Below are positions 20,597 through 40,847 of a stretch of 64,000 nucleotides of DNA, one piece after another. Source of the stretch: Streptococcus oriscaviae (GTDB lineage Bacteria > Bacillota > Bacilli > Lactobacillales > Streptococcaceae); assembly GCF_018137985.1 (NCBI RefSeq), contig NZ_CP073084.1, positions 2,133,336 through 2,197,335 of the forward strand. Reading direction: 5' to 3'. Below the pieces are notes generated by a model. The model ran no database searches, was not told the DNA's origin, and saw only the letters and a list, made by a program, of their open reading frames with translations. The position numbers and the translations under genes are program-made. Position 1 is the stretch's first letter, and each line of letters opens with the position of its first letter.

Positions 20597-23500
20597 ATGT
20601 TTAAAAGAAAAAGAAAGCGCTTTAAACGCAAAGCTAGGCAAAAGGCTAAATTGGCAAGATTTGCAGTAGCAGGACTTGCTAGCGTCACCATTGGTGCGGT
20701 CGGTATGTGTGATTCTGTATCGATCTATGCCGATACGGAATCTGTAACTGCACTACCAGTTGTCACAACTGCTGATATCAGTCAGCCTGTAACAGAAGAA
20801 GTGACAGCAAATACTTCTGTAACTTCAGAAGAAGCTCCGGCTAGTACGACGTTGTCAAATGAACCTGTAACGACTCCAACAAGTACTGAGAGTTCGGAAG
20901 AATCAGAGGTTCAACTAACAACCGAAACCAGCTCTGTGCAGACAATTGGCGAGTCAACTACGACAACGACCGTTGGAACAACCTTATCAACGACAGGTGA
21001 TAAGGGTGTAGAAGAACCCCGAGTTAAAGACGTATCGGAAACCACGACGGCCGAGCAGGCTGAATCAGCAGAAAAAACAAAAACGAAAGATTCTAAAGAG
21101 CTTGTAAAAGAACCCAAAACAACTCAAACAGACAAGAATGGTTTGAAGGAGCTTTTAGTAACAACTGAGGAAAAAGATGGTACAGTTCTTATACCAGAGT
21201 CAGATTCAACTACGTTATTAAGTGCAGGAACTCCTTCAATTGGCCTTCGTGGAGATTATAGATATTCTGGTTGTGTCCAATGGGTAAAGGATCGTTCGCG
21301 AACCTTGCTAGGAATTGTATTGCCTAACACTGGGTATAATAAATACGGACTTCCGGGAGCATCAGCTTATTGGACAGTATTGCCAAGGTACGGCTATCAA
21401 ACTGGATCAGAACCAGCTAAGAATGCCGTTGCTGTGTGGGAGCATAACCCAGTTGCGGTATATGGTTCTAATAACTATGGGCATGTTGCCTTTGTTGAGG
21501 ATGTAAATGGTGATCATGTAACGATTTCTCAAGGGGGAGTGCCGGGGAACTGGGGAGGACATCTAGGAGTTTCCAATAAGGGTTACAGCAAGTCACAAGT
21601 TGCAGGAATTGCAGGTAAATTTCTCGGTTATGTATATTTAAGAGAAAAACCAGCTCCCCCACCACCTCCGGCCGTTAACCGTTACAACGGTGAACAGTTG
21701 GCTGCACAGGTTGGGCGATCTGTTTCGGATGGTGATTACCACATAGTTTCAACAGCTGATCAAAATTTGGGTGTGGATGTTCAAGGTGCGAATCCTGCAA
21801 ATGGAACGAATGTTTGGCTCTGGGATAGTGTCACCTCTCCACATCAGATAATAACAGTTAAGCACCTGGGTGGAGGAAGCTATACGCTTGTTCATAAAGC
21901 CACAGGAAACTCCATGGATGCAACTTCAGCAGAGCCAGGTGCGAATGTCAATGCCTACGCCCTGCATGGTGCCGTTAACCAGCAATGGATTTTGAAACCA
22001 AATGGTGATTCTTTTGAAATTGTCAACCGTCACAGTGGCTTGGTTCTAGATATTGCAGGCGGAAAAATTGCTCAGGGAACAAATATTCAACTATGGGAAG
22101 CAAACAATAGCATTGCGCAAAAATTTAAATTTGTTTCGGTAGATACCGATGCGAAACGGACGATTGCAGATGGCACCTACCACATCATCAGCAAGTTCAA
22201 TGAGCAAATGGGCTTGAATGAAGCAGGTGGTGGAACAGAGAATTATTCAAATGCCCAAATCAATTCTAATCTGCTAGATAGCAAACAGAAATTTGACGTG
22301 AAGTATTTGGGAAATGGATACTATACTATCATTTCAAAAACCACAGGAAGACAGTTGGATGCATTTGGGAACAGCAGTCACAATGGTAGCAATGTAGTCT
22401 TTCATAATGCCAATAACAGTGAAGCCCAACAGTGGATTATCAAAGATGCTGGAGGCGGCTTCTTCGAGATTATCTCTAAGAAGAAAAATATGGCTTTGGA
22501 TACAGATGGTTCTGCAGGGGTTGCCAAAGAAGGAGGCAATGTGCAGTTATATATCAGACACAAGGGCCCGAATCAACTTTGGCGATTTGCACCGGAACCT
22601 CAGTCTATCAAACTGAGTGCGACCGAAGAAACCATGTTGGTCGGTTCAAAGAGAAAAGTGACAGCCACAGTATCTCCTTCAAATGCTAGCAGCTTGGCAG
22701 TTAGCTGGAAATCAACGAACCCTTCTATTGTCACGGTGAACAATGGAGAACTCACAGCTGTTAGTGCTGGGCAGGCTGATATTATCGTAACAACCTTGGC
22801 AGGGGATAAGATTGCCGTTTTGCGCGTGACAGTAAATAAAAAGATTACGCCAGGCTGGAGAACAGATGCCAAGGGCAGTCGTTACCAGTATGCTGATGGT
22901 AGGTACCATACAAATGGTATCAAGCAAATCGATGGCAAATGGTACTTTTTCAATGCCTCAGGTTATATGTCCACTGGTTGGCAAAAAGTAGAAAACACTC
23001 ACTATTATTTCAAATCTTCAGGTGCAATGGCCGCTAACGAATGGATAGACCATACCTACTATGTTGACATCAGCGGCAAGTGGATTCCATCTAAGAAGCT
23101 GGCTACACCAGGCTGGAAGAAAGATTCTAAAGGATATTGGTATCAATATGCTGATGCAACCTATCATAAGAATGGTATGAAGCAGATCGGCGGCAAATGG
23201 TATTACTTCAATAGTGCAGGCTATATGTCCACTGGTTGGCAAAAAGTGGAAGGTAGGCATTATTACTTCAAATCTTCAGGAGCAATGGCTGCTAATGAGT
23301 GGATAGACCATACCTACTATGTTGACATCAGCGGTAAATGGATTCCATCTAAGAAATTAGCAAGCCCAGGCTGGAAAAAAGATGCCAAGGGTTACTGGTA
23401 CCAACATGCAGATGCGACTTATCCTAAAAATGCTTGGAGACTCATTGACAAAAAATGGTATTATTTTGATGGTTCGGGTTACATGGTTACAGGGTGGAGA

Positions 23501-23611
23501 AATATTAAGAATAAGTGGTATTATTTCTACCCATCAGGTCATATGGCTAGAAATACCTACATAAATAAATACTATGTTAACAACGAGGGGGTTTGGATTG
23601 TTGCAAAATAA
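20597..23611 (+). CDS. Secreted CHAP-domain peptidoglycan hydrolase with ricin-type lectin, Big2 and choline-binding-like repeats
   Basis: The 1004-residue modular protein has a strongly basic N terminus and signal peptide (cleavage near residue 45, after IYA), then a Thr/Ser/Glu-rich stalk (about 46-205). A CHAP domain follows (about 210-345) with catalytic Cys226 in YSGCVQWVKDR and His296 in NYGHVAFVEDVNGDHV. After a Pro-rich linker come two ricin-type beta-trefoil modules (about 378-515 and 525-666), a Big2 Ig-like module (about 668-748), and aromatic cell-wall-binding repeats of the choline-binding type (about 750-1004). CHAP enzymes cut peptidoglycan peptides or amide bonds; the lectins and C-terminal repeats would hold it on glycans and teichoic acids. 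No LPxTG. It sits alone between tuf and tpiA with its own promoter. Confidence 0.88.
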   Translation: MFKRKRKRFKRKARQKAKLARFAVAGLASVTIGAVGMCDSVSIYADTESVTALPVVTTADISQPVTEEVTANTSVTSEEAPASTTLSNEPVTTPTSTESSEESEVQLTTETSSVQTIGESTTTTTVGTTLSTTGDKGVEEPRVKDVSETTTAEQAESAEKTKTKDSKELVKEPKTTQTDKNGLKELLVTTEEKDGTVLIPESDSTTLLSAGTPSIGLRGDYRYSGCVQWVKDRSRTLLGIVLPNTGYNKYGLPGASAYWTVLPRYGYQTGSEPAKNAVAVWEHNPVAVYGSNNYGHVAFVEDVNGDHVTISQGGVPGNWGGHLGVSNKGYSKSQVAGIAGKFLGYVYLREKPAPPPPPAVNRYNGEQLAAQVGRSVSDGDYHIVSTADQNLGVDVQGANPANGTNVWLWDSVTSPHQIITVKHLGGGSYTLVHKATGNSMDATSAEPGANVNAYALHGAVNQQWILKPNGDSFEIVNRHSGLVLDIAGGKIAQGTNIQLWEANNSIAQKFKFVSVDTDAKRTIADGTYHIISKFNEQMGLNEAGGGTENYSNAQINSNLLDSKQKFDVKYLGNGYYTIISKTTGRQLDAFGNSSHNGSNVVFHNANNSEAQQWIIKDAGGGFFEIISKKKNMALDTDGSAGVAKEGGNVQLYIRHKGPNQLWRFAPEPQSIKLSATEETMLVGSKRKVTATVSPSNASSLAVSWKSTNPSIVTVNNGELTAVSAGQADIIVTTLAGDKIAVLRVTVNKKITPGWRTDAKGSRYQYADGRYHTNGIKQIDGKWYFFNASGYMSTGWQKVENTHYYFKSSGAMAANEWIDHTYYVDISGKWIPSKKLATPGWKKDSKGYWYQYADATYHKNGMKQIGGKWYYFNSAGYMSTGWQKVEGRHYYFKSSGAMAANEWIDHTYYVDISGKWIPSKKLASPGWKKDAKGYWYQHADATYPKNAWRLIDKKWYYFDGSGYMVTGWRNIKNKWYYFYPSGHMARNTYINKYYVNNEGVWIVAK

Positions 23612-24611: not shown

Positions 24612-27600
24612 ATGACAAAGAAATCATTTTTAATCTTGCTAGCTCTAGCAACGCTCACAATTGGGGGGCAGGCTATTGCGGCGGATACGATTACTGCCAA
24701 TACCGCAACCGTCACCTCTCAGCTTCATTCAAACCGTACAGCTACCATTGAGGTGGCAAAGCAGGCTGAAGGGGTCAAGGTGGTTGCAAGTGGCTTAGAA
24801 GGTGATGTTCATCAGGTTTATGCAACTGTCTGGACTAAGTCTGATAGAAGCGATGCAAGTGTATTTTCCTTTTTTGCAGAAGGGCAAGGGAGCTACGCTT
24901 CAGTATTAGACCGTCTGGGTTACACCACAGAGGCAACGGATTTTCATATTGAATTGGTTGCAGAAATGGTAGATGGAAGTCGTCATACTTTTACAACCTA
25001 CCAATTTAATTGGCTAGTGGAGTCAACGACAACACTAGCGACAACTTCTGTTGTTGATTCATCGACGAGTGCAAGCACCGAAACAAGTACAAGCACTGTA
25101 ACCGTTCCGAGCAGTAGCACAACTCTTTCTGAACCAACAAGCGAAAAGCTGGAGTCGGATACTCCAATTCCCTTAGCTGGTCAGTTGAAAGTGCTCAGTC
25201 AAAACCATCAAGTCGGAACGTTTGAGCTTGTTGTAACGGATGTTTCCAGTCCAAAAACACTCAGCTCAGTAGTTATTCCTGTCTGGTCTGACGTAGGTGG
25301 TCAAGACGATCTGGTCTGGTATACTGCAGCGAAGCAGGCAGATGGCAGCTACAAGGTGACAGTTGATAAGGCCAAGCACAAGAATAGTACAGGGCTTTAC
25401 CATGCCCATCTCTATTATCGTTATGCAGATGGGAGCCAGCAGTTTGTAGCAGGAGCTAAACCAGTCTTGGAAGAGCCAAAGTTGGGTGGTCATATTGCTG
25501 TTCAAAACCAGAACAATCAAACCGGGATGTTTGAATTGCGTATCACAGACGTTTCTAGCCCACACTCTCTTAAGACAATCCTCGTTCCTGTCTGGTCTGA
25601 TACAGGCGGTCAAGACGACCTCGTCTGGTATACTGCAACCAAACAGGGAGATGGCAGCTACAAGGTGATAGTTGATAAAACCAAGCACAAGAATAATACA
25701 GGGCTTTATCATGCTCATCTCTACTACCAATATGCAAATGACAGCCGACAGTTTGTAACTGGGGTTAAACCAGTCTTGGAGGAGCCACGGCCAGCAAGCG
25801 CAAGTGCAAGCTCCACTCCTGCAACAGTAGCAGGCAAGCTGACTATTCAAAAACAAGATAATACAGCAGGGCTCATTGAGCTAAGAATATCTGGCGTTTC
25901 CTCTACCAAGTCCATTAGTTCGGTAGTGGTTCCTGTTTGGTCGGAAATCAATGGCCAAGATGATCTTGTTTGGTACACTGCGACCAAGCAGTCGGATGGA
26001 ACTTACAAAGTTGTCATTGACAGAAAGAAACACAAGAATAGCAATGGTCTTTACCATGCTCACCTCTATTACCGCTATGCGGATGGAAGTAAGCAATTTG
26101 TAGCGGGAGCTAAACCTGTTTTAGCAGGTACAACTCCAACCGGGCAGATTACCATTGAGAATCTTAACGATGGGGTTGGCAGTTTTGATGTTCGCATTAC
26201 GAACATCTCCTCAAATAAAACCCTTAAAACAATAGTGGTTCCTGTCTGGTCAGAAGCCGGTGGTCAAGACGATCTTGTCTGGTACACTGCAACAAAACAG
26301 GCAGACGGTAGCTATAAGGTAACCATTAACAAGGAAAGACACAAACACAGCACAGGCCTTTACCATGTTCACCTATACTATCACTATACAGACGGAAGCA
26401 AGCAAATTGTTGCTGGAGCCAAGCCTGTTTTGGCGCAGTATAGGCCAACAGGTTACTTGTATATTCTTGGCCAAAATGATACTCTGGGTAGGTTTGATGC
26501 TTTGGTAAGAGATATCCAGTCTAGCAAGACTGTTGAGTCTGTTCGTATGGCTGTTTGGTCCGAATCAGGTGGTCAAGATGATTTGACTTGGTATACTGCA
26601 TCAGAGCGACCGAACAGAAGATACAAGATCAGCGTTGATAGAGTTAACCATAAAAATAGCATTGGTATCTATCATGTTCATGTCTATTTTCGCCATAGTG
26701 ACGGTGGTCAATCATTTGTGACAGCCATTAAGGTAAATCTATCTCCGGCATTCACTACTGGTGAGATATCGATTCAAAAGCAGAATAATCAAACAGGAAG
26801 CTTTGAAGTTCACGCCACAGATGTTACATCAACCAAACTGGGTGGCTTTTCTCCTGTACGAGTGGCTGTATGGTCTGAAGCAGGAGGTCAAGATGACCTA
26901 GTTTGGCATCAAACAACTCAATTGTCAGATGGGCATTATGTTGCGACAATTGACAGACGCAAACACAAGAATACCATGGGGGTCTACCATGTTCATGCCT
27001 ACCATTTCTTCCGTGATGGTACTCGCCAGTTCTTAGATGCGACTAAAGTTACTATGCAGGCAACAAAGCCATCTGGTCAGATAAAGGTCACCTACAATCC
27101 CCAGCGTGGTGATGTTGCAGAACTTCAGATTATTGATATTTATGCACCAAAACCGTTGAAGCAAGTTCAAGTGCCGGTTTGGTCAGAAAAAAATGGTCAA
27201 GACGATATTATTTGGTATACCGCAACCAAACAGGCGGACGGAACCTATAAGCTCCCAGTCAATATCAAGGATCATAAGAACAGTACCGGTGTTTACCATG
27301 CCCATCTTTATTATTCCTATACAGATGGTGCTTTAGAGGCTGTATCTGCTAAGACGCTGGTTTTAACTAAACCGAAACCTTATGGAAAACTAACGGTTCA
27401 AAATCTCAACCAAGATACGGGAACCTTTGATGTGCGAATCGCAGATGTATTTACTCCTAAGACTCTGAACAAGGTGATTGTACCAATTTGGTCGGAAACC
27501 AACGGTCAGGACGATATTGTCTGGTATGAAGCGAAGAAGCAGACAGATGGTAGTTATAAGGTATCTGTTGATAAAAAGAATCATAAAAACAGCATCGGAG

Positions 27601-28943
27601 TTTATAACATCCACCTTTATTACAACCATACAGATGGTAGTTTAGAAGGAGCTGGTGGGATTACAACTAAATTAGAGGAAGCGAAACCTGCAGGAAAGTT
27701 GTCTATCCAAAATAAGGACAACAGTACAGGAAGCTTTGACATCATTGTTACAAATGTAAAGGGAGCAACCAGTGTTCTGATACCGGTTTGGTCAGAAGTA
27801 AATGGTCAAGATGACATTGTTTGGTATGGTGCTGAAAAACAGGGAGCCGATACCTACAAACTATCTATTCAAGCTAAAAATCACGGCTACAGTAAAGGGA
27901 ATTATCATGTTCATCTTTATCTAAAGACACCTGACAATCAGACAGTTGGTGCCGATTCAACGGTTACTTCTGTTGACATCACTAGTTTGAACCCACGAGC
28001 TAAGATTTCAATTGAAAATATCAATTCAACTTACGGAATCTTTGAAGTTGTTGTTTCGGAGGTTTTTGCTCCAAAAGGTGTAACAGCTGTCCATGTTCCT
28101 GTTTGGTCAGAAGCAAATGGACAAAACGATGTTCGCTGGTATGAGGCAATTGCACATTCAGACGGCACCTACCGCCTCATGGTTCGTCTAGCAAACCACA
28201 ATTATGAAACGGGTCTTTACCACGCCCATCTCTACATCACAACAGGTGGTCAACAGCTTGGCGTTGGAGGAACTACCTCACAGATGACCTATACAAAAAA
28301 ATCTGTACCATCCTTTATTGATGTCAGCAGCCACAACGGCAGCCTGTCAATGGCAGATTACCGCACTTTGATGAATCAAGGGGTTTCAGGTGTCGTTGTT
28401 AAATTGACAGAAGGTGTCGAATACCTCAACCCATTTGCAGCAGAGCAGATTCGCAACGCTCAAGCGGTGGGACTCAAGGTTTCTGTTTATCACTATTCTC
28501 ACTTTACAAGTGCAGCAGAAGCTCAAGCGGAAGCTCGTTACTTTGTTGAAGCAGCCAAACGTCTTGGTTTGCCAAACTCAGTAGTGATGGTGAATGACAT
28601 CGAGGAAAATAAAACCCGCAATAACATCAATGCGAATATGCAGGCTTGGGAAGCAGAAATGCGTCGTCTAGGCTACAATAACCTCGTGCATTACACAGGT
28701 GCTAGCTGGATTGATGTGAATACACTAGGTGTTAAAGGGCCAATTCAAACCAGCCTATTTGGACTTAAGAATTTCTGGGTGGCTCAATATCCATATTACA
28801 GTGGTATGACCTTGAAAGAAGCTGGGGAGATGAATCTACACTCTTCGACGGCAGCTTGGCAGTTTACATCACAGTCTCGTCTGCTACCTGGTCGTTCCTT
28901 CTTCGATTTGAATATTGACTACACCAATCGCTTTACCAACTAA
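24612..28943 (+). CDS. Secreted GH25 lysozyme-like protein with tandem GBS Bsp-like repeats
   Basis: The 1443-residue protein has a signal peptide (cleavage near residue 24, after AIAA), a degenerate N-terminal module, a Ser/Thr linker (about 140-185), ten Bsp-like repeats of about 95-110 residues (about 190-1225), and a C-terminal GH25 muramidase domain (about 1233-1443). Each repeat carries a VPVWSE-GQDDLVWY core and a HKNSTGLYHAHLYY block. GH25 residues are seen in SFIDVSSHNG (Asp1236) and MVNDIEENK (Asp1329, Glu1331). It would cut glycan strands outside the cell; the repeats resemble those of the group B Streptococcus Bsp protein, linked to cell shape and wall binding. No LPxTG anchor is seen. 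It lies directly after tpiA. Confidence 0.9.
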   Translation: MTKKSFLILLALATLTIGGQAIAADTITANTATVTSQLHSNRTATIEVAKQAEGVKVVASGLEGDVHQVYATVWTKSDRSDASVFSFFAEGQGSYASVLDRLGYTTEATDFHIELVAEMVDGSRHTFTTYQFNWLVESTTTLATTSVVDSSTSASTETSTSTVTVPSSSTTLSEPTSEKLESDTPIPLAGQLKVLSQNHQVGTFELVVTDVSSPKTLSSVVIPVWSDVGGQDDLVWYTAAKQADGSYKVTVDKAKHKNSTGLYHAHLYYRYADGSQQFVAGAKPVLEEPKLGGHIAVQNQNNQTGMFELRITDVSSPHSLKTILVPVWSDTGGQDDLVWYTATKQGDGSYKVIVDKTKHKNNTGLYHAHLYYQYANDSRQFVTGVKPVLEEPRPASASASSTPATVAGKLTIQKQDNTAGLIELRISGVSSTKSISSVVVPVWSEINGQDDLVWYTATKQSDGTYKVVIDRKKHKNSNGLYHAHLYYRYADGSKQFVAGAKPVLAGTTPTGQITIENLNDGVGSFDVRITNISSNKTLKTIVVPVWSEAGGQDDLVWYTATKQADGSYKVTINKERHKHSTGLYHVHLYYHYTDGSKQIVAGAKPVLAQYRPTGYLYILGQNDTLGRFDALVRDIQSSKTVESVRMAVWSESGGQDDLTWYTASERPNRRYKISVDRVNHKNSIGIYHVHVYFRHSDGGQSFVTAIKVNLSPAFTTGEISIQKQNNQTGSFEVHATDVTSTKLGGFSPVRVAVWSEAGGQDDLVWHQTTQLSDGHYVATIDRRKHKNTMGVYHVHAYHFFRDGTRQFLDATKVTMQATKPSGQIKVTYNPQRGDVAELQIIDIYAPKPLKQVQVPVWSEKNGQDDIIWYTATKQADGTYKLPVNIKDHKNSTGVYHAHLYYSYTDGALEAVSAKTLVLTKPKPYGKLTVQNLNQDTGTFDVRIADVFTPKTLNKVIVPIWSETNGQDDIVWYEAKKQTDGSYKVSVDKKNHKNSIGVYNIHLYYNHTDGSLEGAGGITTKLEEAKPAGKLSIQNKDNSTGSFDIIVTNVKGATSVLIPVWSEVNGQDDIVWYGAEKQGADTYKLSIQAKNHGYSKGNYHVHLYLKTPDNQTVGADSTVTSVDITSLNPRAKISIENINSTYGIFEVVVSEVFAPKGVTAVHVPVWSEANGQNDVRWYEAIAHSDGTYRLMVRLANHNYETGLYHAHLYITTGGQQLGVGGTTSQMTYTKKSVPSFIDVSSHNGSLSMADYRTLMNQGVSGVVVKLTEGVEYLNPFAAEQIRNAQAVGLKVSVYHYSHFTSAAEAQAEARYFVEAAKRLGLPNSVVMVNDIEENKTRNNINANMQAWEAEMRRLGYNNLVHYTGASWIDVNTLGVKGPIQTSLFGLKNFWVAQYPYYSGMTLKEAGEMNLHSSTAAWQFTSQSRLLPGRSFFDLNIDYTNRFTN
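25179..28287 (+). repeat. Ten tandem Bsp-like coding repeats (about 300 bp each)
   Basis: Repeat units begin at the residues GQLKV, GHIAV, GKLTI, GQITI, GYLYI, GEISI, GQIKV, GKLTV, GKLSI and AKISI. The first three units are closest in DNA sequence, suggesting recent duplication; the last ones have diverged. Confidence 0.85.
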
Positions 28944-36053: not shown

Positions 36054-39000
36054 ATGAAAATGAAACTGAAAAAGAAAAATAAGACCATTTTAGGCCTCCT
36101 GTCAATTGTGATTGCTATCTTCCTTTTTTCTCCTGCAAAGTCGGAGGCTCAAGATAGTACATCCTCAAGTAGGGTAAGTTATTCCTTTGCAGAAAAATCC
36201 AGTATTCCAGAGGAACATTTGCGTCTGTTAAAGGAAGGTTTTCCTACGGAAATTGCCAAGGCAGATGAGGAAAAATTCATTTTGGTTTACCAAATGAAGG
36301 AAACTTCTCCTTCGTCGGGTACAACAGTGGAAATGACAGATAACTCAAAGGAAACGACAAGTAGTGAAGAGGCGACTAAGCTAGTTGGACATTTGCCAAA
36401 TACTAGTGATAGTAACACAGCCCCTCTTGTTTTTATGGGGGTAGGTCTTCTTGTTTCAGTTATCTACATGGCTTTAGTTAATCGTAAAGCGAATCGCTTT
36501 ATTTGGTTAATTGTACTTTCTGGAGTGGGGTTATCTGCCTACTATTCGCTTCACATATCAGCTCAATCATCTATTTTGAAGGATGTCGTTGTGAAGTATG
36601 TACCTAAAGGTCAGTCTATGGTATATAAACCGGAATCAATTGAGGGATACGACTACATTGGTTATATTTACTTTGTACCATCTTTACCAGTTCAACCGGA
36701 GAGGGTCGAAATTACTTCCGAGGAATCCAGGACGAGTGTGACAACAACTACTAGCGAACCCCTAACTATAAGTTCGATTACCACAACAAGCGAAGAACCC
36801 TCGACAAGCACTACGACCATTGAGGAGCCGACAACCAGCACCAGCACTACGACCATTGAGGAGCCGACAACCAGCACCAGCACTGCGACTATTGAGGAGC
36901 CGACAACCAGCACCAGCACTACGACCATTGAGGAGCCGACAACCAGCACCAGCACTGCAACTATTGAGGAGTCGACAGCCAGCACCAGCACTACGACCAT
37001 TGAGGAGCCAACAGCCAGCACCAGCACTACAACAAGTGAGGAGCCGACAACCAGCACCAGCACTACAACAAGTGAGGAGCCGACAACCAGCACCAGCACT
37101 ACGACCATTGAGGAGCCGACAACCAGCACCAGCACTACGACCATTGAGGAGCTGACAACCAGCACCAGCACTACAACAAGTGAGGAGCCGACAACCAGCA
37201 CCAGCACTACGACCATTGAGGAGCTGACAACCAGCACCAGCACTACAACAAGTGAGGAGCCGACAACCGGCACCAGCACTACAACAAGTGAGGAGCCGAC
37301 AACCAGCACCAGCACTACAACAAGTGAGGAGCCGACAACCAGCACCAGCACTACGACCATTGAGGAGCTGACAACCAGCACCAGCACTACAACAAGTGAG
37401 GAGCCAACAACCAGCACCAGCACTACGACGAGTGAGGAACCAACAACCAGCACCACAACAACTAGTGAAGAGCCTCAAATTCCGTCGGAAGAGCCAAAAG
37501 GTAAGGTTCGTGTTAATTATTACCTCCTTGAGATTGTAAATGGTGAAGGAGGGGTATTAATAGGTGACGACTTTGTCATGCCAGGCTTTAGTATGGAGAT
37601 GGGTTACGCACCAACAATGGTGGCTCCACCTACATTGTTGGAAGGGAAAATTGGTTCAGGTTATGAAGTGCTGCCACTAGAAATCAAGGGGTTTACACTT
37701 TATGATTCCTACAATGAAGTAATAAGGGGAGAATTCAAGGACGAACTAACGGAAATAGATTTCTACTATAGCATCAATAAAGGTAGTGACTACCAAGAGG
37801 GTTATGTCGCTGCTAACTTTCTGTTAGAAGATGGAACAGCTTTTGCACTGAAGAGATATATGGCTGGGCTGGTTGGTTTACCATATGATGTGCCTATTCC
37901 TCAACTAGATAATTATCAGTTTATCAAAATTGATGGACCTGCGACGGGTTACTATAGTAAGGAAGATATTCCAGAAGTTTCGCTGACCTATAAAGATATT
38001 CGCAATACCTCTTTGACAGTTCTTCATCTGACAGAGGATGGGCAAGAATTGGGTCGAGAGGTAATTCGAGGAGTCGCGGGTAAAAAATACTCATTAGAGC
38101 GTGTTTATCCTGTCTATCATTATTTTTATAGTTTCGTAGGTATTGAAGGCGGAGAAAGAACAGGACGATTTACAGAAGAACCCCAGACAGTCGTTTATCG
38201 CTACAACTATGCATTCTCAGAAGGTGTAGTTAAGATTAATTATTTAAACCAAAAAGGCGATGGCATCTACCTTTCTGGAGGGGAACCAACCAGTGTTTCA
38301 GGTCCCTTTGATACCAATTACACTATTGAACCGTTCCAGGGGAATGACTATTATGAACTTACACATACTGAAGGAGATTTGACAGGTACCTTTGATCGGA
38401 AACCGAGAGAAGTTAATTTCTATTATCGGGAAAGAGGACCGGCAGAGGTGACAGTAAACTATCTCACCGAAGATAATCAGTTGTTAAAATCTAGAACATT
38501 AAAAGGGAAGAATGGTCTCCCGTACTCAGTTGATACAGCATACAGCGATGGATATGAATTGGTTCGCCATGAGGGAGAACTTTCTGGTGTCTACTCTAGT
38601 GAACAAGCTAAAACAGTGACACTTTACTACCGAGAGCTTCCAGAAGCAGGGCCTGTTACAGTTAAGTTTGTAGATGTAGTAACCAACGACATCCTCTCTA
38701 CATTAACGTATAGTGGTTATGTTGGGAATCAATATACAAGTTGGAATAGTTATAATGGCAGTGATATTTATGAACTAGTTGAAATCACTGGTGCACCAGA
38801 AAAAGGATACTTTATTCCAGAAGAACAGACGATTACTTATCATCTAAAACGGAAAAAGCATTCTCTTTGGGTAGTACACACAAGTACCGATTATTTCTTT
38901 CAAAGGAACTTGAGAAAAAGCGAAAAGATAGAGGCTATTACAGGTGGAACTTATACGATTACTCCAATAGATAATATCGAGTATGTTGTTGATCAAGTGG

Positions 39001-39494
39001 AGGGTGGAAATCTAAGTGGAGAGATACCATATGGAGATAACACCGTTTATGTTCACTATATTAAAAATCCAAACCGCTCAGGTATCAATTTCCTTTATTC
39101 CAACACCATGTATGTAGAATTTGCAGCTCCAACATTTGTTAGAGGCAATATTGGCGAAACCTACACTGCTCCGATTAAGCAGTTTAAAGGGATGTTGTAT
39201 GTCGGATCTGATAGTACAGACGAAGCTGGAAATGATTTTTTTATCTTTAAACCAGAAGATCAAACCATTACCTTATTCTATGATTTCAAAGCTAGCGTTA
39301 TTGTAAAACACGTCTATCGCAATAATCCTGAGTACAATACAGAGGTAGTATTAGAAGGTGTTGTTGATAGTGAATATATTACAGAACCGATTCTCAGAGA
39401 AGGTACAATACAAGCAGAAATAGAAGGTGATGCAACAGGTTATTATCCAGGATATGGAGAGCCACCTCTTGTTGTGACTTACTATTATGATTAA
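36054..39494 (+). CDS. Large MucBP-repeat surface protein with an internal, N-proximal LPxTG-like sorting signal
   Basis: The 1146-residue product starts with a basic stretch and a hydrophobic segment (about residues 11-26), followed by a small extracellular region (31-113). Then comes a module that looks exactly like a sortase signal: LPNTS (114-118), a hydrophobic helix (about 124-142) and the basic NRKANR (143-148). Unusually it is not at the C terminus; a second helix (149-170) follows, then a Ser/Thr/Glu repeat stalk (about 253-468) and about nine MucBP-like beta modules to the end. MucBP modules bind mucins or other glycans in adhesins. There is no C-terminal anchor, so the stalk and MucBP part would hang from the two membrane helices. 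Read as an adhesin by domain content. Confidence 0.82.
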   Translation: MKMKLKKKNKTILGLLSIVIAIFLFSPAKSEAQDSTSSSRVSYSFAEKSSIPEEHLRLLKEGFPTEIAKADEEKFILVYQMKETSPSSGTTVEMTDNSKETTSSEEATKLVGHLPNTSDSNTAPLVFMGVGLLVSVIYMALVNRKANRFIWLIVLSGVGLSAYYSLHISAQSSILKDVVVKYVPKGQSMVYKPESIEGYDYIGYIYFVPSLPVQPERVEITSEESRTSVTTTTSEPLTISSITTTSEEPSTSTTTIEEPTTSTSTTTIEEPTTSTSTATIEEPTTSTSTTTIEEPTTSTSTATIEESTASTSTTTIEEPTASTSTTTSEEPTTSTSTTTSEEPTTSTSTTTIEEPTTSTSTTTIEELTTSTSTTTSEEPTTSTSTTTIEELTTSTSTTTSEEPTTGTSTTTSEEPTTSTSTTTSEEPTTSTSTTTIEELTTSTSTTTSEEPTTSTSTTTSEEPTTSTTTTSEEPQIPSEEPKGKVRVNYYLLEIVNGEGGVLIGDDFVMPGFSMEMGYAPTMVAPPTLLEGKIGSGYEVLPLEIKGFTLYDSYNEVIRGEFKDELTEIDFYYSINKGSDYQEGYVAANFLLEDGTAFALKRYMAGLVGLPYDVPIPQLDNYQFIKIDGPATGYYSKEDIPEVSLTYKDIRNTSLTVLHLTEDGQELGREVIRGVAGKKYSLERVYPVYHYFYSFVGIEGGERTGRFTEEPQTVVYRYNYAFSEGVVKINYLNQKGDGIYLSGGEPTSVSGPFDTNYTIEPFQGNDYYELTHTEGDLTGTFDRKPREVNFYYRERGPAEVTVNYLTEDNQLLKSRTLKGKNGLPYSVDTAYSDGYELVRHEGELSGVYSSEQAKTVTLYYRELPEAGPVTVKFVDVVTNDILSTLTYSGYVGNQYTSWNSYNGSDIYELVEITGAPEKGYFIPEEQTITYHLKRKKHSLWVVHTSTDYFFQRNLRKSEKIEAITGGTYTITPIDNIEYVVDQVEGGNLSGEIPYGDNTVYVHYIKNPNRSGINFLYSNTMYVEFAAPTFVRGNIGETYTAPIKQFKGMLYVGSDSTDEAGNDFFIFKPEDQTITLFYDFKASVIVKHVYRNNPEYNTEVVLEGVVDSEYITEPILREGTIQAEIEGDATGYYPGYGEPPLVVTYYYD
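36811..37460 (+). repeat. 36-bp tandem repeat array (about 18 units) encoding a Ser/Thr stalk
   Basis: Units read TT(I/S)EE(P/L)TTSTST at the protein level. Variants (I/S, P/L/S, T/A) are shuffled along the array, typical of slippage and unequal exchange. The 36-bp period is a multiple of three, so copy-number changes keep the frame. Confidence 0.9.
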
Positions 39495-39735: not shown

Positions 39736-39764
39736 TTGCCATTTGCTTGAAAATCTGCTATAAT
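39736..39764 (+). promoter_or_regulatory. Promoter of the first TM2 gene
   Basis: TTGCCA (39736-39741), 17-bp spacer, TATAAT (39759-39764). Confidence 0.7.
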
Positions 39765-39785
39765 AACAAATTAAAAGGAGAAATT

Positions 39786-40394
39786 ATGAATTACGCACAA
39801 TCATTTTTAATGGCCAATATGAGCTCTTTCCCAGCAGATAAGCTTCCGATTTTGCAAAAGGAAGTGGAACAACTGGATGACCAAGCTATCACAACCCTGA
39901 TGATGACGGAAATAAAAAATCCAACAACAGCCCTTCTTATTTCTATTTTTGTAGGAGAATTGGGAATTGACCGTTTTTATGTTGGTCATAAAGAATTAGG
40001 GATTTTAAAACTCAGTTTACTAGTCATATCTTTTGTAACCCTATTTATTTTGATTGGATTTTTCCTCCTTCCGATTCTCTATATCTGGAAGATAGTGGAT
40101 ATTTTTCTTATCATGGGAGCTTGCAAACAGGCGAATTTTGAGCGGCTTATCCAGCAGCTGAATTATGTAAAAATGGCACAGAAAAGCCAGGTCGCTAAGA
40201 CGCAAGGGCCTGTGAAAGAAGATGCGGTAGAAGTAGTTGAAGAAGCACCGGTAGATGTGATTGTAACAGAACACATTGAAGAAACGAGTCTTGTAGAAGA
40301 AGAAGCTGTGGTTCAAGAAGAAACTGTGGCTCAAGAAGAGATTGTAAATGAGCCAGTTGTTTCTGACGAAGGTTCAGAGGAACGTTCGGAATAA
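39786..40394 (+). CDS. TM2 domain membrane protein with acidic C-terminal tail
   Basis: The 202-residue protein has a soluble N-terminal helical part (1-50), a TM2 domain (about 55-115) with the diagnostic GELGIDRFYVGHKELG between two membrane helices, and an acidic tail of about 70 residues rich in Val and Glu. The function of TM2 proteins in bacteria is unknown. The next gene is a clear paralogue: residues around FLMANMSSFPADKLPILQKE align with YLAANAANLPAEALPMLRER. The ATG at 39786 follows AAAAGGAG; the earlier in-frame start overlaps the promoter. Confidence 0.85.
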   Translation: MNYAQSFLMANMSSFPADKLPILQKEVEQLDDQAITTLMMTEIKNPTTALLISIFVGELGIDRFYVGHKELGILKLSLLVISFVTLFILIGFFLLPILYIWKIVDIFLIMGACKQANFERLIQQLNYVKMAQKSQVAKTQGPVKEDAVEVVEEAPVDVIVTEHIEETSLVEEEAVVQEETVAQEEIVNEPVVSDEGSEERSE

Positions 40395-40455: not shown

Positions 40456-40490
40456 AGTACACTATAAACTTGATTATTAAGGAGATTATT

Positions 40491-40847
40491 ATGTCACGTT
40501 TTTCTGATACTTACCTTGCAGCGAATGCTGCGAACCTTCCAGCTGAAGCTCTTCCAATGCTTCGTGAACGTTTGGATGCTCTTGATGAATCACAAACAGC
40601 TTTTATCTTGGCAACAGAGTTGAAGAGTCCAACAACTGCTTTGATTTTTTCTATTCTTTTGGGTTCTTTCGGAGCAGATCGCTTCTACATCGGTCAGGTT
40701 GGTCTTGGTGTTGCTAAGTTGTTCTTGTCTTGGTTAACATTTGGAATCTGGGTCTTGGTTGACTGGTTCCTTATCATGAATGCTACCAAGCGCGCTAACC
40801 TTGAAAAGTTGAACATGGCTTTGATGGCAGCAACAGCAGGTCGTTAA
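40491..40847 (+). CDS. TM2 domain membrane protein (paralogue of the preceding gene)
   Basis: The 118-residue protein has the same N-terminal helical region and TM2 domain as its neighbour (LGSFGADRFYIGQVGLGVAK between two helices) but lacks the acidic tail. It has its own promoter and terminator and strongly biased codons, suggesting higher expression than the first copy. It follows AAGGAG with good spacing. Function unknown; tandem placement suggests duplication and specialisation. Confidence 0.88.
   Translation: MSRFSDTYLAANAANLPAEALPMLRERLDALDESQTAFILATELKSPTTALIFSILLGSFGADRFYIGQVGLGVAKLFLSWLTFGIWVLVDWFLIMNATKRANLEKLNMALMAATAGR

Follow-up and report, generated by a model that had tools for sequence, protein, structure and literature searches.

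The stretch of DNA analysed here (the window) comprises 64,000 nucleotides of Streptococcus oriscaviae (contig NZ_CP073084.1, positions 2,133,336 to 2,197,335) and contains, on the forward strand, an intact frame (36054..39494 in the numbering of the window) which encodes a MucBP adhesin of 1146 residues with an anchor module at its N-terminus; when translation is begun at codon 3, the product is the protein of 1144 residues named P0003. Residues 1–208 are an N-terminal anchor module of the IgA1-protease/Zmp type, homologous to the modules of the Zmp proteins, and a known layout is thus found on an unexpected passenger. We suggest, with confidence slightly better than even, that a double cut excises the membrane hairpin of the module and that the small N-terminal domain (N-domain), linked to the wall, would hold the stalk and the MucBP head by pairing with the tail of the module. 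Binding to mucin or to host surfaces would be the function suggested by the name of the MucBP domain.

An anchor module of the IgA1-protease/Zmp type

The module starts with a signal peptide (residues 1–32, 36054..36149), probably cut at SEA/Q judging from its sequence, and in an alignment of 37 modules Ala occupies the proposed cut column in all the 30 that are filled there. It is followed by a small extracellular N-domain (residues 38–82, 36165..36299), whose final strand is FILVY79, by a Thr/Ser-rich linker (residues 83–113, 36300..36392), and by the sortase-type motif LPNTS (residues 114–118, 36393..36407), the sole LPxT of the protein, with Ser as fifth residue. The first transmembrane helix of the sorting signal (TM1, residues 123–142, 36420..36479), recognised in both the sequence and the predicted model, the basic loop NRKANR (residues 143–148, 36480..36497), presumably a cytoplasmic turn, and a second helix (TM2, residues 149–166, 36498..36551), which we interpret as an internal signal peptide, form the hairpin. 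After TM2, in the string ISAQSS, come a site, I-S-A/Q, with the sequence pattern of signal peptidase I (residues 168–170, 36555..36563), and the tail (residues 171–208, 36564..36677) with GYDYIGYIY. The passenger consists of a Thr/Ser/Glu/Pro stalk (36807..37455), made of 18 copies of a 36-bp tandem repeat, and of the MucBP region (37491..39491), which ends in VTYYYD and carries no C-terminal sorting signal. An allele, P0002, has a stalk shorter by 84 residues and is otherwise identical to the window protein (P0001).

The sequence-only reading had described LPNTS, a hydrophobic helix, NRKANR, a second helix and about 975 more residues with a Ser/Thr stalk, and all of these are present in the intact frame; it had also counted about nine MucBP modules, whereas Pfam finds eight stretches (135.6 bits, cut-off 23). 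MucBP was the only family above cut-off in the Pfam scan of the window protein, which gave no match to M26, G5, YSIRK or leucine-rich repeats. The sorting-signal-like module near the N-terminus, as that reading had proposed, is real: with the LPXTG anchor model TIGR01167 the whole protein reached 16.0 bits and its first 174 residues 19.4, over the cut-off of 15.9, although Pfam Gram_pos_anchor remained under its cut-off of 20 on the same 174 residues (10.5 bits). The signal stands at residue 114 of 1146, rather than at the C-terminus as in canonical sortase substrates.

When residues 1–215 were used as query, 11 of 1323 candidate proteins had E ≤ 0.001, and two of these are the gene of the window itself or its allele. 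The nine non-identical relatives, 50–58% identical, carry LPKTS (two), LPNTG (two) or LPKTG (five) as motif and all nine have the basic loop and the two helices in the corresponding position, so that the layout is conserved; P0007 and P0012, two of the nine, are shorter proteins that stop inside the MucBP region. Two short relatives located on short contigs were added by a profile search, namely P0013 (293 residues), which is the module plus stalk, and P0014 (114 residues), which stops just ahead of the motif position, their ends being either a stop codon or a contig edge. When the close alignment was used to scan GTDB-representative contigs, possibly without the genome of the window, none of the 117 candidate stretches was confirmed as a relative.

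To evaluate the relationship with the IgA1-protease/Zmp modules, a profile was built from 31 modules of the Zmp half of the trees described below, mostly of M26 proteins, excluding MucBP-type modules; its rows include the subtilase L088, the G5-only frame L153, the own-genome locus L041, truncated frames and pairs from the same locus. Residues 1–215 of P0001 matched this profile with 68.2 bits (E 9e-20 for 2200 sequences), while the best of 39 negatives, that is ordinary LPXTG frames of the same genome with some genes counted twice, reached 18.0 bits. Seven held-out modules of the MucBP or Cys type scored from 17.9 to 73.7 bits; the weakest, L200 (17.9 bits), overlaps the negatives and is linked through its sisters in the trees. 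In its first ~170 residues the window protein has an LPXTG-type motif, with TM1, the basic loop and TM2, followed by the tail GYxYVGY in the form of GYDYIGY at residues 198–204. Moreover, the profile of alignment A5 (29 sequences) matched the deposited IgA1 protease sequence 7uvk, of 2201 residues, with E 1.2e-26; the constructs of an enzyme of this length begin at residue 651 or later, as far as the passages of PMC9637739 state.

In common with the IgA1 protease, ZmpB, ZmpC and ZmpD (M26), the window protein has a signal peptide, a small YxYV...YYLVY domain, LPXTG at about residue 100–115, two helices with a basic loop, a small-x-Ala site and the GYxYVGY tail. It differs from them in the passenger, made of MucBP repeats on a Thr/Ser stalk with no Pfam match to M26, G5 or YSIRK, and in the tree, where its module is placed in the half that is mostly MucBP. 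MucBP repeats are shared with adhesins and internalins such as InlJ, and NF033187 (internalin_J) matches residues 696–859 with 72.9 bits (cut-off 1700); however, InlJ-type proteins have their LPXTG placed C-terminally, whereas the window protein has an N-terminal anchor, no C-terminal sorting signal and no leucine-rich repeat match.

The sequence-only reading had considered the layout unusual. Within the genome this is true: all 35 sorting-signal matches over the TIGR01167 cut-off were inspected, and 32 lie within 36 residues of the frame end, the three internal ones being the window protein and two loci of M26 proteases (Zmp-type). At the first of these loci (L044), LPATG is at position 111 of a frame of 1093 residues. 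At the second (L041, G000:C1:216900-219500), LPSTG is in a frame of 269 residues, separate from a later frame that holds the M26 domain, and this gene looks interrupted. Beyond the genome, however, an N-terminal LPXTG is already described, in the published passages, for the IgA1 protease and for ZmpB, ZmpC and ZmpD.

A candidate second cut site after the hairpin and a proposed contact across it

According to the mechanism that we propose, signal peptide 1 would export the N-domain, and TM1 with the basic loop would halt translocation and make LPNTS available to sortase, by which the N-domain would be linked to peptidoglycan. TM2 would act as an internal signal peptide exporting the passenger, signal peptidase I would cut after A170, and the hairpin would be lost after both cuts. 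The N-domain strand around Y79 would then pair with the tail strand around Y204, and the wall-linked N-domain would exert in this way a non-covalent hold on the stalk and the MucBP head; in one clade a disulfide may be added and, in proteins with a decayed sorting motif (Listeria and others), TM1 would be what keeps this clasp attached to the membrane. We infer both cuts, the wall linkage and the contact between N-domain and tail from the sequences. The genome of the window gave one sortase match and two matches to signal peptidase I.

The modules compared were 174, all distinct, obtained after merging identical ones and dropping seven frames without a readable GY, and 58 of them remained when redundancy over TM2 and tail was limited to 60% identity. 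The pattern [AVSTGILC]-x-Ala was found 33–37 residues ahead of the final tail Tyr in 52 of the 58 non-redundant modules, and in 10–28 of them in five other five-residue bins, one of which shares an edge position. The distance from motif to site is 52 residues in the window protein (LPNTS to I-S-A170/Q171) and 53 in the pneumococcal-type module L074. The IgA1 protease is reported to be cut 56 residues downstream of LPXTG (PMC9637739, in the passages available), a position close to the site. With basic residues before it and small-x-Ala after it, TM2 looks like an internal signal peptide.

A hairpin was also observed in small LPXTG proteins fused to a WxL domain (L190 and L191 from one genome, L193 and L194; three genomes of the order; Pfam 109.8–231.4 bits), which do not belong to the module family of the window. 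Their second helix ends, by eye, in a signal-peptidase-like site, and each frame apparently gives two products. These fusions support the idea of an internal signal peptide.

As for the proposed contact, the equivalent of Y79 and the tail GY were present in 37 of 37 modules and, in the profile-selected frames, the tail dipeptide equivalent to G203-Y204 was GY in 172 of the 174 and GF in the remaining two. The hairpin and both proposed cuts lie between these best conserved places. In addition, a Cys 4–7 residues past the Y79 equivalent and a Cys 4–6 residues before the Y204 equivalent occurred together in 12 of the 174 modules and never on one side only. This count was corrected by hand for L269_1, for which the script gave an offset of +8 and inspection by eye +6; in the script table the pairs are 11, plus one tail-only case. 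On the larger tree, the cysteine pair requires two changes, namely one gain (clade support 80/80) and the loss of both cysteines together in L207, where Ser and Asn stand instead. In L046 both cysteines are shifted by two residues, in opposite directions. We regard the paired cysteines as good evidence of a contact between N-domain and tail, although they reflect few evolutionary events.

Several observations weigh against this interpretation. The conservation of GY in 37 of 37 modules is partly by construction, as the selecting pattern required GY, and among the seven dropped frames L210 has GA, L217 has GV and L266 deviates, the other four ending before the tail. The cysteine pair comes down to one clade gain, one loss and one shift on the larger tree, and the smaller tree needs four changes; the cysteine offsets vary (+5/−6, +7/−6), so that the register is not fixed; cysteines lie outside the sites in six of the 174 modules (L221, L225, L265, L277, L288 and L289); and the window protein itself contains no cysteine. 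An unpaired cysteine is also present in the tail region of the dropped frame L266, and L211, sister of L046 in the smaller tree, has no site cysteine in the N-domain and belongs to a frame that loses the tail, so that it is unscorable as a pair. On the side of the second cut, the site pattern is permissive and is missing from the bin in six of the 58 modules, although three of these (L209, L269 and L274) have an Ala site just outside it, and the passages of PMC9637739 assign the distal cut to sortase A, not to signal peptidase. Finally, the canonical LPxT[GSAN] is missing from 23 of the 174 modules.

A structure was predicted by AlphaFold for residues 33–215 using 29 alignment rows. The per-residue confidence (pLDDT) was 81–93 in the blocks of the N-domain and 91 in the best tail block, but low in the linker, and the values for the whole module were a mean pLDDT of 68.9 and a pTM of 0.50, which again count against the clasp. 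The tail alone still gave a hairpin (blocks 78–85), so that this control adds little; the second tail strand spans residues 199–207 in the whole-module model and 203–209 in the tail-alone model. A fold search returned no match. The predicted models are compatible with the clasp.

Other explanations for the hairpin and its motif

The hairpin might also stay in the membrane, with TM2 as an uncleaved signal anchor, the MucBP head tethered to the membrane and LPNTS being a relic or only partly cut. The Ser at the fifth position of the motif goes in this direction, and so do the motifs LLKAG, LLKTG or LPKAG in Listeria and others, where both helices persist. On the other hand, such a tether does not agree with a small-x-Ala site kept at a fixed distance in most non-redundant modules nor with the published cut of the IgA1 protease close to this site, and the cysteines paired across the hairpin would need another reason; hence we consider it unlikely, though deserving attention.

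Two cuts could, instead, occur with no clasp, the passenger being secreted or kept by some other contact, for instance of the MucBP domains or the stalk with the wall. A possible release of the IgA1 protease from the cells, mentioned in the passages of PMC9637739, would fit this idea, and the AlphaFold control, in which the tail alone still forms a hairpin, leaves room for it; since the tail is conserved across passenger types and the cysteines are paired, we judge it rather improbable.

The first proposal of the sequence-only reading was that sortase cuts LPNT/S and sends the N-domain to the wall, the rest remaining on TM1–TM2 by means of neither a second cut nor a clasp. Conservation of the sorting motif and of the basic loop in the nine close relatives speaks for such a cut, but the site after TM2, the position of the cut in the IgA1 protease and the cysteines raise the same objections as for the uncleaved hairpin, and both the conserved tail and the cysteine pairs would be left unexplained. 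A large part staying on two membrane helices is, therefore, less likely than a second cut after TM2, and we hold this proposal to be very doubtful.

The frame could, lastly, be a fusion or assembly artefact joining a small LPXTG protein of the EF0750/ElrB type to an adhesin, given that NF053819 (EF2685/EF0750 family) matches residues 7–145 with 36.7 bits on the whole protein and 44.7 on the first 174 residues (cut-off 47; 47.5 bits when neighbouring matches are added) and that the relative P0014 ends before the motif, but this is practically negligible, because the same order is found in the nine non-identical relatives, with no stop or frameshift between the two parts, the Zmp-half profile recognises the module, and the EF0750/ElrB-type proteins, which share signal peptide, linker and sorting signal with the window protein, have this signal at the C-terminus and, in the members compared, lack the YxYV...LVY N-domain.

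A portable unit and its possible role

The unit formed by signal peptide, small domain ending in VY, LPxTG, hairpin, signal-peptidase-like site and GYxYVGY tail was found in front of different passengers. Among 69 frames that were classed, 54 match M26 references and 15 do not, nine of the latter running off the fetched stretch; a second sorting motif was present in the last 70 residues of none of the 69, at least nine of which are incomplete. The passengers recognised by Pfam were M26, subtilase S8 (L088), MucBP (the window protein, L077, L079 and L091), G5 only (L153, L155 and L156) and Rib (L114, a truncated frame). In both trees the modules fall into a Zmp-type half and a half of mostly MucBP type, the latter including the window protein, with support 98/93 in the smaller tree and 98/90 in the larger one. 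Ten frames from the latter half were scanned with Pfam, and eight had MucBP and two the module only; the same half also has long-branched rows with other passengers, such as L078, which is M26, and L209, which resembles the M26 protein L076. Proteins of 240–270 residues, consisting of a Cys-type module and a Thr-rich stalk, were also observed (L257, L260, L269 and L274), and in each of two genomes two such short proteins are in tandem (L257, L269).

One module-bearing frame matches at 95.9% the L. monocytogenes record WP_014601749.1, annotated as MucBP domain-containing protein, and the group of modules to which it belongs is probably from Listeria. The Listeria protein shares module and MucBP passenger with the window protein, but differs in its degenerate motif (LLKAG in L230), in its length of about 490 residues and in having no long stalk. 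Of the 23 modules with no canonical LPxT[GSAN], 22 are outside the genus and one is streptococcal (L207, LPKSG); the degenerate motifs are mostly LLKAG, LLKTG and LPKAG, in Listeria and other families of the order, and both helices are kept. Sortase anchoring therefore does not belong to the constant features of the module, which are the hairpin, the tail and, very nearly, the site. As MucBP adhesins, a subtilase and proteins of Listeria all carry this module, it is a portable unit rather than a protease feature. We assign about even chances to the proposal that the unit works as a general two-piece clasp, independent of its passenger, in streptococci, Listeria and the order to which they belong; a disulfide would reinforce it in one clade, and in Listeria the membrane helix would hold it.

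In the surroundings of the adhesin gene, two proteins with a TM2 domain are encoded directly 3' of it (39747-40394 and 40470-40847 of the window). Further upstream are a protein with CHAP, ricin-type lectin, Ig-like and choline-binding repeats (20597-23611) and a GH25 protein with ten stretches of GBS Bsp-like repeats (24612-28943).

The enzyme part of IgA1 proteases and Zmps lies C-terminal to the sortase motif, so that sortase would anchor the wrong piece. The work of Bender and Weiser (2006) on the IgA1 protease module may have described part of the processing. In the published passages searched, no clasp, no internal signal peptide in the module and no MucBP passenger are described, and those dealing with the N-terminal LPXTG of IgA1 protease and Zmps state no mechanism of retention. 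If the proposed clasp is true, it would account for the retention on the cell of IgA1 proteases whose LPXTG is on the "wrong" side, and the paired cysteines name a testable contact between two small pieces. In this case, searches for sortase substrates limited to the C-terminus would overlook one class of surface proteins, and large passengers could be displayed with the module as a tag.

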